Origin: Frigoribacterium sp.
GTDB lineage: Bacteria; Actinomycetota; Actinomycetes; Actinomycetales; Microbacteriaceae
Length of the DNA: 64,000 nt
Direction: 5' to 3'
NCBI GenBank assembly: GCA_025363205.1
Contig: JANYEI010000139.1
Location: 19,151 to 83,150, forward strand
The stretch's first letter is position 1. The number at the start of each line of letters is the position of its first letter. A model generated the notes under the pieces. That model was not told the origin of the DNA and did no database searches. It saw only the letters and a program-made list of their open reading frames with translations. Below, piece by piece: positions 18,467-27,037 of this stretch. A program made the position numbers and the translations under genes.

Positions 18467-18532
18467 GGCTCGGGGCAATCTCGAGCGTCAGCGGGGCAAA
18501 CTCCGGTGCCCTCTCCCCGCGCGTCCCTTGCG

Positions 18533-18611
18533 CGAAATGCAGGACTCCACGTGACAGGAGTGACGGAAGAGCCTCATCCGTAACACTGGTCACACCCGAT
18601 CCTGCATTTCG
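18533..18611. repeat. 79-bp near-palindromic intergenic element, copy 1
   Basis: 12-bp terminal inverted repeats cgaaatgcagga/tcctgcatttcg; inner gtgac/gtcac and gacgga/tccgt pairing. Confidence 0.8.
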
Positions 18612-18676
18612 AACAGACCAGCACGCACAGCAGGCCAGCGCGCGCAGCAGACCAGCGCAGGGCAGGCCGGCGCACT
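18612..18676. repeat. Degenerate ~17-bp tandem array (acagaccagcacgcac-type units)
   Basis: aacagaccagcacgcac agcaggccagcgcgc gcagcagaccagcgcag ggcaggccggcgcac. Confidence 0.6.
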
Positions 18677-18741
18677 GAGAACTCGCCGCTGCGCAGAACT
18701 CGCCGCTGCGCAGAACTCGACCGCGCAAACTCGACCGCGCG
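18677..18741. repeat. ~17-bp tandem array (agaactcgccgctgcgc units)
   Basis: agaactcgccgctgcgc x2 then agaactcgaccgcgc, aaactcgaccgcgc. Confidence 0.7.
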
Positions 18742-18818
18742 AAATGCAGGACTCCACGTGACAGCAGGGGCTGAAGAGCCTCATCCGTCACACCGGTCAC
18801 ACCTGATCCTGCATTTCG
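18740..18818. repeat. 79-bp near-palindromic intergenic element, copy 2
   Basis: Same length and terminal repeats as copy 1; 72/79 identical by manual alignment. Confidence 0.8.
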
Positions 18819-18888
18819 AACAGACCAGCACGCACAACAGACCAGCACGCACAGCAGACCAGCCCGCAGCAGGCCAGCGCACTCACCG
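18819..18888. repeat. Second ~17-bp tandem array (acagaccagcacgcaca units)
   Basis: acagaccagcacgcac aacagaccagcacgcac agcagaccagcccgc agcaggccagcgcac. Confidence 0.7.
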
Positions 18889-18935: not shown

Positions 18936-21035
18936 TTATACGTCGATTCGCTCGCGCGACATCCCGTCCGAACCCGCGATGATGAAGTCCTTGCGGGGGG
19001 CGACATCGTTGCCCATGAGCAGCTCGAACACTCGCTCGGCGTTGACAGCGTCGGTGATTTGCACGCGGCGTAGCGTGCGGTGGTGACGGTCCATGGTGGT
19101 GGTCGCCAGTTGGTCGGCATCCATCTCGCCGAGGCCTTTGTAACGCTGAATCGGATCCTGGTAGCGCTTGTTCGACTTCTTGAGCCCGGCGAGCACCCCG
19201 TTGAGCTCGGCCTCGGAGTAGGTGTAGATCGTCTCGTTCGGCTTCGTGCCCGGGTTCATGACAATAACCCGGTGCAGCGGCGGCACCGCGGCGTACACGC
19301 GTCCGTCGCGAATCATATCGGGCATGTAACGAAAGAACAGCGTCAGCAACAGGGTGCGGATGTGCGCGCCATCGACATCCGCATCGCTCATGATGATCAC
19401 CTTGCCGTACCGCGCCGTCGCAAGGTCGAAGCTGCGGCCGGACCCGGCGCCGATCACCTGGATGATCGAGGCGCACTCCGCGTTGCCGAGCATGTCGGAA
19501 ACGGATGCTTTCTGCACGTTGAGGATCTTGCCGCGGATCGGCAGCAGCGCCTGATATTCGCTATCGCGCGCAAGCTTCGCCGTTCCCAGTGCGGAGTCCC
19601 CCTCCACGATGAAGAGCTCGCTGTTGGCCACATCCGAGCTTCTGCAGTCAACCAGCTTCGCCGGAAGGGACGAGTTCTCGAGGGCATTCTTGCGCCGCTG
19701 GGTCTCCTTGTGCGCGCGCGCTGAGATGCGGGACTTCATTTCCGCGACGATCTTGTCAAGCACGAGTGCCGACTGCGTCTTGTCGTCACGCTTCGGCGAA
19801 CCGAACTTCTCCGCCATGGTCTTGGCGACCACCGCAGCGACGATATTGCGAACCGCGGGAGTTCCGAGGATCTCCTTCGTCTGCCCCTCGAACTGCGGCT
19901 CAGGCAGGCGTACGGTCAACACCGCCGTGAGGCCGGCGAGGATGTCGTCCTTCTCAATCTTCTCGGTGCTGTTCGCACCAGTGCCGACCTTGAGTCGGCG
20001 CGCGTTCTGCTCGACCTGCGCGCGGAGGAACTTGAGCATCCCGGCCTCGAAGCCGGTTTGGTGAGTGCCGCCCTTCGGGGTGGCGATGATATTCACGTAG
20101 CTTCGGAACACCGTGTCATACCCGGTGCCCCAACGCAGGGCGATATCGACCTCGCACTCGCGCTCAAGCTCGGTGGCGACCATGTGGCCCTTGTCGTCGA
20201 GCACGGGAACGGTCTCCTGGAACGCGCCGGAGCCGGTCATTCGCCAGGTCTCAGTAAGGGCGGTGTCCGGGGCGAGGAAGTCGACGTATTCAGCGATTCC
20301 ACCGTCGAAGCGGAACAGTTCATGGATGGGCTCGGCGCCACGCTCGTCGGTGATGTCGATGCCGAGGCCTCGCACCAGGAACGCGGTCTGACGCGCGCGG
20401 GTCGCGAGTTCATCCGTTTGAAAGGTCGTGCCGCGGCTGAATATCTGCGGATCAGCCCAGTAGCGAATCCGGGTGCCGGTCGCACCGCGCGGCACCCTGC
20501 CGATCACGCGCAGTTCACTCTTCTTCTCGAACGGGGTGAATACGGCGTCCGCTCTCGGTCCGTCGGCGGTATCGGCGAAGATACCGGGCTCACCACGATG
20601 GAATGACATCGCCCAGGTCTTGCCATCACGGTCGACTTCGACATCCAGGCGCTCTGAAAGGGCGTTGACGACCGATGCTCCAACGCCGTGAAGTCCACCG
20701 GAGGCAGCATAGGATCCGCTGCCGAACTTGCCGCCGGCATGAAGCTTGGTGAACACGACCTCGACCCCGGACAGACCGGTCTTCGGCTCGATGTCCACCG
20801 GAATCCCGCGGGCGCGGTCACGCACCTCAATGCTGTCGTCGGCGTGCAACACCACGGTGATCTCATCGCCATGACCACCGAGTGCCTCGTCGACAGAGTT
20901 GTCGATGACCTCCCACAGGCAGTGCATAAGGCCACGCGAATCAGTGGATCCGATATACATGCCCGGACGCTTGCGTACCGCCTCGAGACCCTCGAGCACC
21001 GACAGGTGCCGTGCAGAATAGTCCGAACTCGCCAC
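18936..21035 (-). CDS. parE: DNA topoisomerase IV (gyrase-like) subunit B
   Basis: LEAVRKRPGMYIGSTDSRGLMHCLWEVIDNSVDEALGG; FIVEGDSALGTAKLARDSEYQALLPIRGKILNVQKA. Confidence 0.92.
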   Translation of the reverse strand: MASSDYSARHLSVLEGLEAVRKRPGMYIGSTDSRGLMHCLWEVIDNSVDEALGGHGDEITVVLHADDSIEVRDRARGIPVDIEPKTGLSGVEVVFTKLHAGGKFGSGSYAASGGLHGVGASVVNALSERLDVEVDRDGKTWAMSFHRGEPGIFADTADGPRADAVFTPFEKKSELRVIGRVPRGATGTRIRYWADPQIFSRGTTFQTDELATRARQTAFLVRGLGIDITDERGAEPIHELFRFDGGIAEYVDFLAPDTALTETWRMTGSGAFQETVPVLDDKGHMVATELERECEVDIALRWGTGYDTVFRSYVNIIATPKGGTHQTGFEAGMLKFLRAQVEQNARRLKVGTGANSTEKIEKDDILAGLTAVLTVRLPEPQFEGQTKEILGTPAVRNIVAAVVAKTMAEKFGSPKRDDKTQSALVLDKIVAEMKSRISARAHKETQRRKNALENSSLPAKLVDCRSSDVANSELFIVEGDSALGTAKLARDSEYQALLPIRGKILNVQKASVSDMLGNAECASIIQVIGAGSGRSFDLATARYGKVIIMSDADVDGAHIRTLLLTLFFRYMPDMIRDGRVYAAVPPLHRVIVMNPGTKPNETIYTYSEAELNGVLAGLKKSNKRYQDPIQRYKGLGEMDADQLATTTMDRHHRTLRRVQITDAVNAERVFELLMGNDVAPRKDFIIAGSDGMSRERIDV

Positions 21036-21259
21036 GTGAATCTCCTTCGCGGCACCGCCAACATCGTCGAAACGGGGAATGGACGGGGACTGGGCCGGGT
21101 TAAACACTAACGACAGTCAATGCCGTTACCGACGTATGACACCCCTTGATGAAGCGGGTACGCGTTCAGCGAAATACACAGGTTTTGTGGCCACGTTGGG
21201 ACAGACCCGTGTTTGTATTGAAACAACACATTATGAAAAGGAAATCAGAGGAGCAACTC

Positions 21260-21496
21260 ATGGCTCAGATTGCACCCGAAACGACTGCAGTGAACGACAT
21301 CAACTCCAGCCCTCGGCTTACCGCGTCGGACCGCTGCGACAGCTGTGGTGCGCAGGCCTACATCCGTGTCGCCATCGGTTCGAGCGAACTGCTGTTTTGC
21401 GCACATCACGGCAAGAAGTACCAGGAAAAGCTCGCGACCATCGCCAGCGACTGGCACGACGAGTCGGACCGCCTGCTTCAGGACAACCGCGCCTAG
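21260..21496 (+). CDS. DUF7455 family small zinc-binding-like protein
   Basis: 79 aa: LTASDRCDSCGAQAYIRVAIGSSELLFCAHHGKKYQEKL. Confidence 0.85.
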   Translation: MAQIAPETTAVNDINSSPRLTASDRCDSCGAQAYIRVAIGSSELLFCAHHGKKYQEKLATIASDWHDESDRLLQDNRA

Positions 21497-21522: not shown

Positions 21523-21550
21523 AGCGCCCTCGGCTTCGGCCGGGGGCGCT
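21523..21550 (+). terminator. Rho-independent-like terminator with UUCG loop
   Basis: agcgccctcggc-ttcg-gccgggggcgct followed by ttgctttctt. Confidence 0.8.
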
Positions 21551-21578: not shown

Positions 21579-22619
21579 TTACTCGAGAAATCGCCGGTGG
21601 ATGCGCGGACTCAGGCGTGTGACGAGCTCTTCCCCGATCGTGCCCAGTTTGTCTGCCCACTCCTGCACGGTCGGCTCACCGTCCGTGCCGTCACCGAAGA
21701 GGATCGCTGTCTCACCGGTACGCACGATGGCTTCACCAGTGTCCACCGTCAGTTGGTCCAACTGGACCGAGACGACCCTGTGGCGCACGCCTTCAAGCGA
21801 GACCTGCACCCCCGCCGCTGAGCTGGGGACGCCGTCACCATAACCGATCCCGACGGTCGCCAGGCCATCCCGCACCGCGATTACCGGTGCGGTGAGCGTC
21901 ATTACGGGTTCGAGCAGGAGCGAAGAGGGGGTTACCCCGCCGCCGGGCGATATTCCGAAGGAAAAAGCCCCGATCCGCACAAGGTCAAACCGGGCATCGG
22001 CGCGACCGAACGCGGCCGCACTTGCCGCAAGATGCCGCACCGTTACGTTCGCTCCGAGACGTTCGGCAATTGCGAGCGCCGAGCGGAACCGCTTGATCGC
22101 CACGGTGTCGTCGTCGTCGGAAGCCTCCGCGATGTGAGTCCAGATACCGACGAGTTCGATGCGGTCCGACAGGGCGAGAGCTTGGGCCACCAGGGCGGGC
22201 CACTGCTCGATGCTGGCACCGTTTCGATGAAGGCCCGTGTCAATCTTGAGGTGCACCCGCGCTCGGCCAGCGACGCTGGCCCGAGCAATCGCATCCAACT
22301 GGCCGAGTGTCGAGACGCCGAAGTCGAGTTCGGCGTCAATCGCTGCGGTGTAATCCTCGTTGGGCCCGAGTAACCAAGTAAACAGGGCCACGTCACGCGG
22401 GATGCCGTTCTGCCGCAACTCGAGGCCGGTCTCGATGTCGAGGACGCCGAGCCAGGTGACCCCGGCCGCGACTGCCGCACGCGCGACCGGTACGGCGCCG
22501 TGTCCGTAGGCATCCGCTTTAACCACGGCCATCAGGGCGGCCGGAGCAACCCGCTCGGCGAGCCGGGCAAGGTTACGCCGGTAGGCGGCGAGATCAATCG
22601 TGGCTGTGGGCGTATTCAT
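21579..22619 (-). CDS. alr: Alanine racemase-like PLP enzyme, full length with partly degenerate C-terminal domain
   Basis: PLP motif VVKADAYGHG, VRIGAFSFGI, VGIGYGDG; the usual GRVxMD reads VVSVQLDQ. Confidence 0.85.
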   Translation of the reverse strand: MNTPTATIDLAAYRRNLARLAERVAPAALMAVVKADAYGHGAVPVARAAVAAGVTWLGVLDIETGLELRQNGIPRDVALFTWLLGPNEDYTAAIDAELDFGVSTLGQLDAIARASVAGRARVHLKIDTGLHRNGASIEQWPALVAQALALSDRIELVGIWTHIAEASDDDDTVAIKRFRSALAIAERLGANVTVRHLAASAAAFGRADARFDLVRIGAFSFGISPGGGVTPSSLLLEPVMTLTAPVIAVRDGLATVGIGYGDGVPSSAAGVQVSLEGVRHRVVSVQLDQLTVDTGEAIVRTGETAILFGDGTDGEPTVQEWADKLGTIGEELVTRLSPRIHRRFLE

Positions 22620-23287
22620 CGATACACCCGCGGCAGGTGGGAGCCGAAGACGGAGACGATCTCCGCGCTCGGGCGCCGGAGGCTGCTCGCCCAGTCCCAG
22701 ACCGCAGGATCCTCCCCGGAGGGGTCACCAAACACAACCGCCTCGTCGCCGATCAGGGCGGAATCCTGCCCGAGGTCAAGCACAAGGGCATTCATCGCCA
22801 CGCGCCCTACGATACGACGCGGCGCTCCCCCGAGTCGGAGAGATCCCACATTGCTCGCGATACGATCCAAACCCTCCGCGTAGCCGATTCCGACGAGCGC
22901 AAGATTGGTGCGCGAGGGTGCGGTCCAGGTGTACCCGTAGGAGACACTCTCGCCGGCATCGATTGTCTTTGTGCCCACTACCAGCGCGCTGACCCGCATC
23001 GCCGGCCGCAGCTCACGATCCGCACAGAGTCCGTACAGTGCCTCACCCGCAGAGATGAATTCCGCATCACGCCCTGTCGACGCGGTGAAATCGATGTCGC
23101 GAACGAAGACACCGCCATCAACGGCGGCGGCGGTTACCGCCGTGACGCCGTGACCGTAGGCATCCGCCCTGAGATCGGCGACGACGACTCGAGAACCAGC
23201 CCGGCGAACGAGCACAGCCGCGTTGTCGCGGATCGCCGAGAGATTGATGCTCGCACGGTGAATGTGTGAACCGGACAGCGTCATCAC
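22616..23287 (-). CDS. Truncated alanine racemase paralogue (C-terminal domain retained, barrel mostly deleted, PLP Lys replaced by Arg)
   Basis: VVVADLRADAYGHG (K to R), jump to EALYGL, then GESVSYGYTW, VGIGYAEG, GRVAMN, LPRVYR; 4-nt overlap with alr. Confidence 0.85.
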   Translation of the reverse strand: MMTLSGSHIHRASINLSAIRDNAAVLVRRAGSRVVVADLRADAYGHGVTAVTAAAVDGGVFVRDIDFTASTGRDAEFISAGEALYGLCADRELRPAMRVSALVVGTKTIDAGESVSYGYTWTAPSRTNLALVGIGYAEGLDRIASNVGSLRLGGAPRRIVGRVAMNALVLDLGQDSALIGDEAVVFGDPSGEDPAVWDWASSLRRPSAEIVSVFGSHLPRVYR

Positions 23288-23318
23288 CTCTTGGATTGGA
23301 CGGACGATTCTCGAAGTC

Positions 23319-24086
23319 CTAGATTCTTGAGAATACGTGTTTCGCGTGGGCGATGATCACGTCTCGCGCCCGCGTGGCGTAGTACTCGAGTTTTTCGTTG
23401 CGCTCTGAGTTAATCACGGTGAATCCACGACGCATACCGATCGACGCGATGATGGCGTCGGTGAGGAGTGGGTTGAGGGGCAGTGCCGGGCCACCGACCT
23501 GCGTGCCGATAGCGACAGTGCCGCTAACCACAGTGCCGACGGTGCCGGTATCGAGGACGCCCTCGACGGAACCCTCGCCATTGCCACTGCCGGCCTCGAG
23601 GATGCCCAGGGGCTTTGCCCCGGCATCCAGCGTCCAGCGAGACGCGTTGTCTTCGAATCCGACGATCTGGCCGAATGGCGAATCGACGATCACGTAGCCG
23701 ACGGCACGCGTGGAGATGCGGGTCGCTCGGAACGGCAGGACTGCTAGCCCCTCGAGCGAGGTGCCGTCGGCGAGGGTGATAGAATGGCCGAGCAGCTCGG
23801 CGCCGGAACCGTAGGCGAACACGGCAGTGCCGCTCGCGCGCAGCGCGCGAAGCCGGTCGCCATTCGCCAGCAGGTCGGCGTGGATGTTGCGCATCGCCGA
23901 AAGCGGTCCGTTGCCGACGATGACCAGGTCGACATCCGTCGGGAGTTGAGATCCAACCTCGTGGGCAATAACTGTCACGGAATGCCCGGCACGCGTCAGT
24001 CGGGCTGTCAGCGCCATAACATTACCCCGATCGCCGGCTACCCCGAGTTCGTCGGGGTAGAGCTGCACAATCGTCAGCTCACTCAT
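23319..24086 (-). CDS. GatD-like (CobB/CobQ-type) glutamine amidotransferase subunit lacking catalytic residues
   Basis: LYPDELGVAGDRGNVMAL N-terminus, GATase-1-like core AVFAYGSGAELLGH and GTQVGGPALPLNPLLTD; no cysteines; ATGA overlap with MurT-like gene. Confidence 0.85.
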   Translation of the reverse strand: MSELTIVQLYPDELGVAGDRGNVMALTARLTRAGHSVTVIAHEVGSQLPTDVDLVIVGNGPLSAMRNIHADLLANGDRLRALRASGTAVFAYGSGAELLGHSITLADGTSLEGLAVLPFRATRISTRAVGYVIVDSPFGQIVGFEDNASRWTLDAGAKPLGILEAGSGNGEGSVEGVLDTGTVGTVVSGTVAIGTQVGGPALPLNPLLTDAIIASIGMRRGFTVINSERNEKLEYYATRARDVIIAHAKHVFSRI

Positions 24087-25432
24087 CGCTGGTTCTCCAG
24101 CTCGAGGAAACCGATCTGCTTTCGGGCTAGCATCATGATCTCGTAATTGACGATCCAGGTCTTGAGCCCACTTGACGGCCGGGGAAGCGTACGCATGATG
24201 TCGATCGCCTTCTTGAGGTCGGGCTCGACAGCGCCGATGGCAATCCCTTCGTGCTCGAGACGGAGGGCAATCTGCCACGCCTTCGCACCGGTGACCACGT
24301 CGACATGGTCGAGCGCGGCAAAATCAATATCGTAGATCCAGGAGATGTCAGGCGTTCCCTCATCGATCGCGAAAAGCACCTGTTGCGGGGGCTCGGGCAG
24401 CGCGTCGAGGTTGAGCTGAAGGCTCGCGGCATTCTTGAACATCACGAATTCAACCTGTTCGTTCACGCCATCGCGGTTCGTGAAGTCAAGCAGTTCGCCC
24501 CGGCCATAGGCGGGCTTCATTGTGGCAAACGCAGCGGCCGAGGACGTGCCGTCGAAGCGATCTCCAAGGATGACTGCCGCCGTTGCCAGCGCCGCTGCCG
24601 CGTCGATCGCGTAGTGGAGGCCTTTTGCCGGGAGAGTCACGTCGACCGTCGTGCCGTCGACGACAATCGTCGCTCCCGCGCGATCGGTTGCCACCAGTTC
24701 CGCCAAAGCATGATGAGAATCGGACAAAACGGTGGCATCTCGGTAGTCCGTGGCGTTGAACAGCCCATGGGGGGCGCGCGCGATGACCGCCTCCGAAGCA
24801 CCGAAGTAGGTGATGTCCGGGTCGGCCGTCGCGTCTCCGTCGGCATAGCGCCTGGCGATCTTCGACAGGTAGGGGTCTTCGCGATTGGTCACAATGTGCA
24901 GAGCCGCCTGCTGGGCGGTGTCGAGCATCATGTCGGCGACGCGTTCGGTCTCGTAGAACCGGTAAAGCTGGTCGACTTGAGTGTTTAGCACCAGCACGGT
25001 AGACGGAGGAACTACTGCGGCAAACTCGAGCGCGAATGCCTCATCCACCTCGAGCACGCCGATGTCGGCATCGAGCCTGCCGAGCACGCTGGACTCGGCG
25101 AGAATCGACGACGCGATACCCTGCGGCAGATTCGCGCCGGACGGGTTGGTGAAGACCCTCAAGCCGTGCCCACGCAACACCTCGGTGAGCATGTGTGTCG
25201 TGGTGGATTTGCCATTGCTGCCAAGCACGTAAACAATTCCGTACCGGAATTGATGTGTGACATCCCGAAGGAAGTTCGGCGCGAGTTTCGTTGTGACGTA
25301 GCCGGGAAAGGCGGACCCGCCACCGCGAAGCTTCGCAAGGGCTCGCACCATCTTCCCGGCGACGACCGGGATGAAGTACTTCAGTCCACTGGGCTTGCGT
25401 TGCTGTGCTCTACGCGACGCTGACGGGTTCAC
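24083..25432 (-). CDS. MurT-like Mur ligase family protein without zinc ribbon
   Basis: YVLGSNGKSTTTHML P-loop, NPSGANLPQGIAS, GVLEVDEAF, DISWIYDIDFAAL; no Cys in 449 aa. Confidence 0.87.
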   Translation of the reverse strand: MNPSASRRAQQRKPSGLKYFIPVVAGKMVRALAKLRGGGSAFPGYVTTKLAPNFLRDVTHQFRYGIVYVLGSNGKSTTTHMLTEVLRGHGLRVFTNPSGANLPQGIASSILAESSVLGRLDADIGVLEVDEAFALEFAAVVPPSTVLVLNTQVDQLYRFYETERVADMMLDTAQQAALHIVTNREDPYLSKIARRYADGDATADPDITYFGASEAVIARAPHGLFNATDYRDATVLSDSHHALAELVATDRAGATIVVDGTTVDVTLPAKGLHYAIDAAAALATAAVILGDRFDGTSSAAAFATMKPAYGRGELLDFTNRDGVNEQVEFVMFKNAASLQLNLDALPEPPQQVLFAIDEGTPDISWIYDIDFAALDHVDVVTGAKAWQIALRLEHEGIAIGAVEPDLKKAIDIMRTLPRPSSGLKTWIVNYEIMMLARKQIGFLELENQR

Positions 25433-25440
25433 AGTGCGGT

Positions 25441-26811
25441 TTACTCGAGGTAATCGCGCAGTGACTGCGACCGCGAGGGGTGGCGAAGCTTCGCCATCGT
25501 TTTGGATTCGATCTGGCGGATTCGCTCACGCGTAACCCCGAAGGTATCGCCGATCTGGTCGAGCGTCTTTGGCATGCCGTCACCGAGTCCAAAGCGCATT
25601 CGGATGACGCCGGCTTCGCGCTCGGAAAGTGAGTCGAGCAGCGACTCGAGCTGCTTCTGCAGCATGGTGAAGCCCACGGCATCCGCAGGAACGACTGCCT
25701 CGGTGTCCTCAATGAGGTCGCCGAACTCGCTGTCGCCATCCTCGCCAAGAGGCGTATGGAGTGAGATCGGCTCGCGGCCGTACTTCTGCACCTCGATGAC
25801 CTTCTCCGGAGTCATATCGAGCTCGCGGCTCAACTCCTCCGGAGTGGGCTCACGACCGAGATCCTGCAACATCTGGCGCTGCACGCGCGCGAGCTTGTTG
25901 ATGACCTCGACCATGTGCACCGGGATTCGGATGGTGCGGGCCTGGTCGGCCATGGCTCGGGTGATCGCTTGGCGGATCCACCACGTGGCATAGGTGGAGA
26001 ACTTGAAGCCTTTGGTGTAGTCGAACTTCTCGACGGCACGGATGAGGCCGAGGTTTCCCTCCTGGATGAGGTCGAGGAACTGCATTCCCCGGCCGGTGTA
26101 GCGCTTGGCCAGCGACACGACCAAGCGCAAGTTTGCACCGAGTAGATGACTCTTAGCGCGTTGCCCGTCCTTGGCAACCCACGAGAGTTCCCGCCCAAGC
26201 TGCGACTTGAGCTCCGCCGGGGTCATGTCGGCGAGCTTGTCTTCGGCGAACAGTCCGGCCTCGATCCGCATGGCGAGCTCGACCTCCTCAGCCGCATTGA
26301 GCAGTGCAACCTTGCCGATCTGCTTCAGATAGTCCTTGACCGGGTCTGCGGTCGCGCCCGTGATAGCGGACGAATAAACCGGAACTTCGTCTTCGTCGTC
26401 CACGAGGGAGAGTACGAGCGCTCCCGACGGCAGTACCTCCGCTGACGAGGCGTCTTTTTCATCGTCGGAATCGTCGGTCGTGTCGTTCTTGGAATCGTCG
26501 CCCTTGGACTCTTCGACGGCAGCTGCTTCTGCGTCGTCGTCGGGGCCACCCTCGTCATCATCGGAGGCCCCAGCCTTCGTGCCTCGCTTGACCGGTGCCT
26601 TCTTCGCCGGGGCCTTCGCGGCAGCCGGGGCTTTGGCAGCCGGGGCCTTCGCGGCAGCCAGGGCTTTGGCAGCAGCCGTCTTGGGAGCCGCTTTCTTCGC
26701 GGGCGACGCCGTCTTCTTCACGGGCGCATCGGCGTCAACGGCGAGGTCAACACTGACCTCATCGGTGGTTTCTATTTCCGCAACTGCGGTGGTTTTGGTT
26801 GGGGTGGCCAT
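25441..26811 (-). CDS. rpoD: Principal RNA polymerase sigma-70 factor
   Basis: Ala/Lys-rich N-terminus; [70 protein letters not shown]. Confidence 0.96.
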
Positions 26812-27037
26812 CTGGACACCTTTCACTAGTTTTTCTTCAGGCGTTACACGCCCATCACTGGTAGGACCACCCTCGCCCGTCGCACTGATTCGACGGGTTT
26901 TTCGGGCAGCACTAAGACCCATGTCAAGTTTTCGCGCTTCTCACAGCGGTGCAGTGTGCGAGATGCAAGAACCAGAACGGGCCTTACGTCAATTATTGCA
27001 TGGATTCAAGATTGCCCTTGCCAACTCGACCAGATCG

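Follow-up and report, generated by a model that had tools for sequence, protein, structure and literature searches.

The slot between rpoD and gyrB in a 64,000-nucleotide (nt) stretch of Frigoribacterium sp. DNA (contig JANYEI010000139.1; the whole stretch is called the window below) encodes a MurT-like Mur ligase (MurT*), a GatD-like partner that lacks the glutaminase residues (GatD*), and two incomplete alanine racemase (Alr) paralogues, one short (AlrS) and one long (AlrL). From gene content and residue patterns, we think it probable that MurT*/GatD* starts the B-type peptidoglycan cross-bridge on D-Glu and that AlrS/AlrL, as a heterodimer, supplies a D-amino acid. In B-type walls the bridge is attached at the alpha-carboxyl of D-Glu, the same group that MurT activates, and this type of cross-linkage has been used for decades in the classification of Microbacteriaceae. 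The genes follow rpoD on the minus strand, spaced 8 nt from it, in the order murT* (24083..25432, 449 amino acids (aa)), gatD* (23319..24086, 255 aa), alrS (22616..23287, 223 aa) and alrL (21579..22619, 346 aa). Two 4-nt ATGA overlaps join murT* to gatD* (24083-24086) and alrS to alrL (22616-22619), and a gap of 31 nt (23288-23318) lies between gatD* and alrS; this arrangement had been described in an earlier reading of the window (hereafter the original prediction), and all its coordinates were reproduced. Pfam assigns MurT* to MurT_C/Mur_ligase_M, GatD* to GATase_3, AlrS to Ala_racemase_C plus a short Ala_racemase_N fragment, and AlrL to Ala_racemase_N and C.

Aligned with Staphylococcus aureus GatD, GatD* has Gly93 in place of the nucleophile Cys94 and Gly198 in place of His189, and is predicted to be glutaminase-dead. 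MurT* retains the P-loop GSNGKS, the Mg ligand E128 (equivalent to E108 of the S. aureus protein) and, as D362, Asp349, third residue of the shared triad (PMC6113224); E128, D362 and the ATP-site residues are invariant across 20 aligned relatives. Its MurT_C domain scores 34.7 bits (gathering threshold 25), and the NCBIfam isoglutaminyl-synthase models (Staphylococcus) give MurT* and GatD* 92 and 71 bits, against cut-offs of 800 and 450. The comparison covered MurT loci from genomes of the family, 80 named loci, almost all of them from Microbacteriaceae, and 20 loci of families elsewhere in the order. None of the 132 rpoD-linked GatDs retains Cys94, in contrast to 11 of 12 unlinked copies in Microbacteriaceae and 20 of 20 copies in the other families, and His189 is kept alongside it in these 11/12 and 20/20. 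The rpoD-linked proteins carry Gly, Ala, Ser, Thr, Asn or His instead, and the loss of Cys94 in 132 of 132 copies places the GatD* lesion far beyond chance. His189 is lost in this genus, but slightly more than half of the rpoD-linked GatDs retain it, which makes the Cys94 loss the general lesion. MurT_C scores are bimodal as well, with the order's other families at 65-112 bits and the main rpoD-linked type at 22-47 bits. The inactive amidotransferase partner proposed in the original prediction is supported by two Gly substitutions and by the fixation of the Cys94 loss. These residue losses were not seen in the other families of the order and so far occur in one family only, which answers the prediction's concern that the same losses might recur elsewhere; nor was the second, canonical MurT that it had warned of found in this genome (completeness 90%) or in a congener of 100% completeness.

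The S. aureus enzyme offers a precedent for such a state. MurT paired with GatD C94G no longer uses glutamine, and its ligation of free ammonia to lipid II persists at pH 8.5 (PMC3266927); without GatD, MurT shows no activity (PMC3266927, Table 2). Glutamine-dependent activity is eliminated by GatD C94S or C94G and falls severely with MurT D349N (PMC6113224). By this precedent, the natural GatD* state is expected to retain an activated ligase with the ammonia supply removed, and the rpoD-linked MurT*/GatD* almost certainly performs no glutamine-dependent amidation.

Several further features of these proteins were recorded. MurT* has no CxxC pairs and lacks the Cys4 zinc ribbon, which is mostly absent from canonical copies of the same family too; as a published survey found the ribbon cysteines in some Actinobacteria only (PMC6085368), we dropped this loss as non-diagnostic. 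Six loci (L066-L070 and L102) display a third slot state, with a MurT in which the CPxC pairs of the zinc ribbon are in most cases intact, a GatD-like protein whose Cys94 position is occupied by His and, in 3/6, an ATP-grasp protein. A MurT* subclade (L094, L100, L103, L105 and L112) has the P-loop GS[SA]GKS, not GSNGKS, and the C-terminal motif SDVRDPSYFWPVD or one close to it. Records named 'Planococcus sp. APC 4015' (L136) and uncultured Cellulomonadaceae (L165, a metagenome-assembled genome) show a typical Microbacteriaceae slot, and these names may be wrong.

The slot itself is stable while its ligase changes. Its fixed left boundary is rpoD, which encodes the housekeeping sigma factor (25441..26922, minus strand) and is linked to the ligase gene in all 132 scored loci; its right boundary in nearly all relatives is a gyrB/parE-type topoisomerase subunit gene (18936..21107, minus strand). 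In one congener (G140), a CofE-like protein (PF01996) and an ATP-grasp protein (PF14397) are encoded between rpoD and alrS, replacing murT-gatD. Among 150 genomes of the family, 21 encode a CofE-like protein, 121 some form of MurT and 8 neither, and the presence of one or the other in 142/150 suggests a core function. A strong CofE-like match and a MurT never occur in one genome (hypergeometric P ~2e-19, phylogeny ignored), a caveat softened by MurT/CofE swaps within seven genera (g1, g7, g9, g13, g59, g60 and g84), this genus included. In the loci read, CofE directly follows rpoD in nearly all of the 21 CofE genomes (L036:5562-7496, L037:108-2040 and L225-L242), mostly with the ATP-grasp protein (PF14397) and between rpoD and gyrB. 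The slot protein scores far under the cofE equivalog cut-off, and no strong CofE match was found in this genome.

Genomes with an empty slot provide a second comparison. No ligase lies between rpoD and gyrB in the genomes read that have an unlinked canonical MurT/GatD or neither ligase; the slot was scored as free of any ligase in 22 of the 150, and 13 of these slots were read directly. FemAB ligases are found in 14/22 empty-slot genomes versus 10/127 slot-occupied ones, in matches that are mostly weak and partial and in genomes that are not phylogenetically independent. No FemAB domain protein was found in the genomes searched for it (G000, G076 and G140), this genome and the 100%-complete congener included. 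Read most simply, these patterns suggest a bridge-related function for the slot ligase, one that the remaining genomes solve otherwise.

AlrS and AlrL divide the catalytic residues of one racemase between them. In the Alr homodimer, the Lys39 and the Tyr265 of each active site belong to different chains. AlrL has the complete barrel with Lys39 (K34 here), Arg219 (R215) and Tyr43 (all copies but one); a segment of about 19 residues that includes Tyr265 is deleted, and Met312 is lost (one copy has Met there). AlrS consists of the first beta-alpha-beta-alpha of the barrel and the entire C-terminal domain; Lys39 is replaced, mostly by Arg (R40 here), and Tyr265 (Y117) and Met312 (M165) are retained. 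Among 52 AlrS and 52 AlrL sequences this split has no exception: Lys39 and Tyr265 are never in one polypeptide, and the full catalytic set is present only when the two are combined. With the residues divided in this way, a dimer can assemble one active site where Alr usually has two. At 51 of 51 loci with both genes, the genes are adjacent on the same strand with alrS upstream, and the pairwise divergence of the two proteins is mirrored (r = 0.87; the highest value in permutations was 0.15). In a quick tree from few columns, the AlrS sequences fall into a single clade and the AlrL sequences nearly do, and confident AlphaFold single-chain models of both (predicted local distance difference test 89.7 for AlrS and 93.0 for AlrL) match Alr structures. 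We conclude that AlrS and AlrL very probably form one obligate heterodimeric enzyme with a single composite site. The truncated Alr of the original prediction is a genuine 223-aa open reading frame, conserved with relatives in dozens of genomes, which rules out a frameshift or assembly artefact; the two alanine-racemase proteins that it named are both present, most likely as one heterodimeric racemase and not as two enzymes, AlrL being incomplete too. No report of a heterodimeric Alr was found in the literature searched, which mostly excluded subscription journals.

The pair is distributed more patchily than the ligase. It lies next to the ligase at Agreia, several Microbacterium, Leifsonia, Pseudoclavibacter, Salinibacterium and Microcella loci, and not at Curtobacterium, Frigoribacterium, Clavibacter, Agromyces, Rathayibacter and Cryobacterium loci; of the lineages without it, some have adjacent Alr genes elsewhere and others a single Alr. 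Many genomes have the ligase and no pair, and CofE genomes have the pair and no MurT, so the racemases do not belong to a fixed cassette as originally predicted. Rathayibacter, Cryobacterium and Plantibacter, which we take to be lineages with D-2,4-diaminobutyrate (D-Dab) bridges, have a single Alr and no AlrS/AlrL pair. These lineages, and the adjacent Alr genes that Clavibacter carries elsewhere, show that the pair does not strictly mark D-diamino acid bridges; it is one solution among several, not a universal component of the ligase system. Tandem complete alr-alr pairs occur away from the slot at L039, L041, L046, L049 and L053, and adjacent Alr genes were also seen in Curtobacterium, Clavibacter, Subtercola and Herbiconiux; one member of such pairs often reads VSYDY, not VSYGY.

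Relatives within the family have B-type walls (PMC4156110, PMC9603630). Rhodoluna yields the diagnostic B-type peptide Gly-D-Glu (PMC4156110), D-Dab bridges D-Glu to D-Ala in Clavibacter michiganensis (PMC9603630), and Microbacterium species vary, with D-ornithine, L-lysine or Dab (PMC10757982). The C. michiganensis locus (L142) reads rpoD-murT*-gatD*. In the literature searched, mostly without subscription journals, no paper was found that names the enzyme that loads the B-type bridge onto D-Glu. The link to B-type bridges drawn in the original prediction is partly supported, by the limitation of the pattern to one family, by the exchange with CofE and by the inverse relation to FemAB; which amine is used and which amino acid is racemised we infer.

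In the mechanism that we propose, the rpoD-gyrB slot would encode a carboxylate-amine ligase system for the D-Glu alpha-carboxyl of the lipid-linked peptidoglycan precursor. MurT* would phosphorylate this carboxyl using ATP, and GatD*, unable to free ammonia from glutamine, would persist in an obligate structural role. The nucleophile that then attacks the acyl phosphate would be an amino acid, either glycine or a D-diamino acid, and not ammonia, and the attack would make the first bond of the B-type cross-bridge; judged from the residues kept and lost, MurT*/GatD* is likely to be such an amino-acid ligase for D-Glu. AlrS/AlrL would have a single pyridoxal phosphate (PLP) site, built from Lys39, Arg219 and the barrel of AlrL and from Tyr265 and Met312 of AlrS. 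It would supply a D-amino acid, most likely the D-diamino acid of the bridge, and the complete canonical Alr encoded elsewhere in this genome would make D-Ala; a D-diamino acid as its product may or may not hold, with about equal weight on each side. Across the family, there is a comparably balanced case that the slot, whether it encodes MurT*/GatD* or a CofE-like protein, usually with ATP-grasp, starts the B-type bridge, often together with a heterodimeric, single-site D-diamino-acid racemase.

Other explanations fit parts of these results. MurT*/GatD* might amidate D-Glu or another carboxyl with free ammonia, GatD* acting only allosterically and the racemase pair being an unrelated passenger. 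The S. aureus MurT/GatD-C94G complex does this in vitro at pH 8.5 (PMC3266927), and the Alr pair is missing at many ligase loci; yet at pH 7.5 the S. aureus complex showed no ammonia ligation, and continued amidation is hard to square with a Cys loss in every rpoD-linked copy of a single family. The swap with a CofE-like ligase, whose family couples amino acids to carboxylates, and the need of B-type walls for the same carboxyl (PMC4156110, PMC9603630) also make this explanation rather unlikely. It is similarly unlikely, though a little less so, that the carboxylate to which MurT* joins an amino acid is a different one, in a wall polymer, pigment or small molecule, with AlrS/AlrL feeding a D-amino acid into that pathway. 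The CofE family belongs to cofactor biosynthesis and the housekeeping neighbours offer no hint of a pathway, as this would allow, but MurT* is of the MurT sequence family and retains the lipid II ligase residues, the FemAB anticorrelation points toward a peptide cross-bridge, and a MurT or CofE in nearly every genome of the family suggests a core function. As for the racemases, their sequence similarity to alanine racemase could reflect a decayed duplication, in which AlrS serves as a regulator or pseudo-subunit and D-Ala is made by AlrL, on its own or together with the canonical Alr. Exact complementarity in all 51 pairs, fixed gene order, mirrored divergence, the absence of Tyr265 from every AlrL and of Lys39 from every AlrS render this very improbable.

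Some observations weigh against a MurT*/GatD* ligase that starts the B-type bridge with a D-amino acid from AlrS/AlrL. Three genomes carry a canonical and an rpoD-linked MurT together, and the slot neighbours rpoD and gyrB are not cell-wall genes. If some of the empty-slot genomes were B-type, another ligase must exist, and the FemAB contrast is subject to the weakness and non-independence of its matches. The absence of the pair from the presumed D-Dab lineages means that bridge D-amino acids do not generally come from AlrS/AlrL.

Two features lie near the slot. A 147-nt direct repeat (18530-18676 and 18737-18883 of the window, 89% identical, spacing 207) is located between the two topoisomerase subunit genes. 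A GC-rich hairpin (21523-21550) stands between alrL and a convergent plus-strand gene (21146-21496), and its T-rich tract on the plus-strand side fits a terminator of that gene.

If the proposed ligase function is correct, an amidotransferase deprived of its ammonia source has turned into an amino-acid ligase, and an unrelated ligase can substitute for it in the same slot. AlrS/AlrL is a clean natural case of paralogues that have each lost the active-site half retained by the other. Compared with the MurT/GatD isoglutaminyl synthase of S. aureus and S. pneumoniae, the slot shares adjacent genes for a Mur ligase and a class-I glutamine amidotransferase fold, the ATP site and the E108 and D349 equivalents; unlike it, the slot proteins lack Cys94/His189, fall far under the NCBIfam cut-offs, and are rpoD-linked and so far limited to one family. 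The S. aureus GatD C94G mutant (PMC3266927) has the Cys-to-Gly change at the identical position and is still required for MurT activation, whereas the change in GatD* is natural and conserved and His189 is gone too. AlrS and AlrL combined have the fold and catalytic residues of homodimeric Alr, a fold type III PLP racemase, but these residues are split over two paralogues, so that one active site is possible and not two. A relative of CofE, the F420-0:gamma-glutamyl ligase (PF01996), fills the identical slot in 21 genomes of the family, although it scores far under the equivalog cut-off. FemABX ligases (PF02388), which are tRNA-dependent and act on residue 3, have a presumed equivalent role in building the interpeptide bridge, but they are absent from this genome and rare where the slot is occupied.

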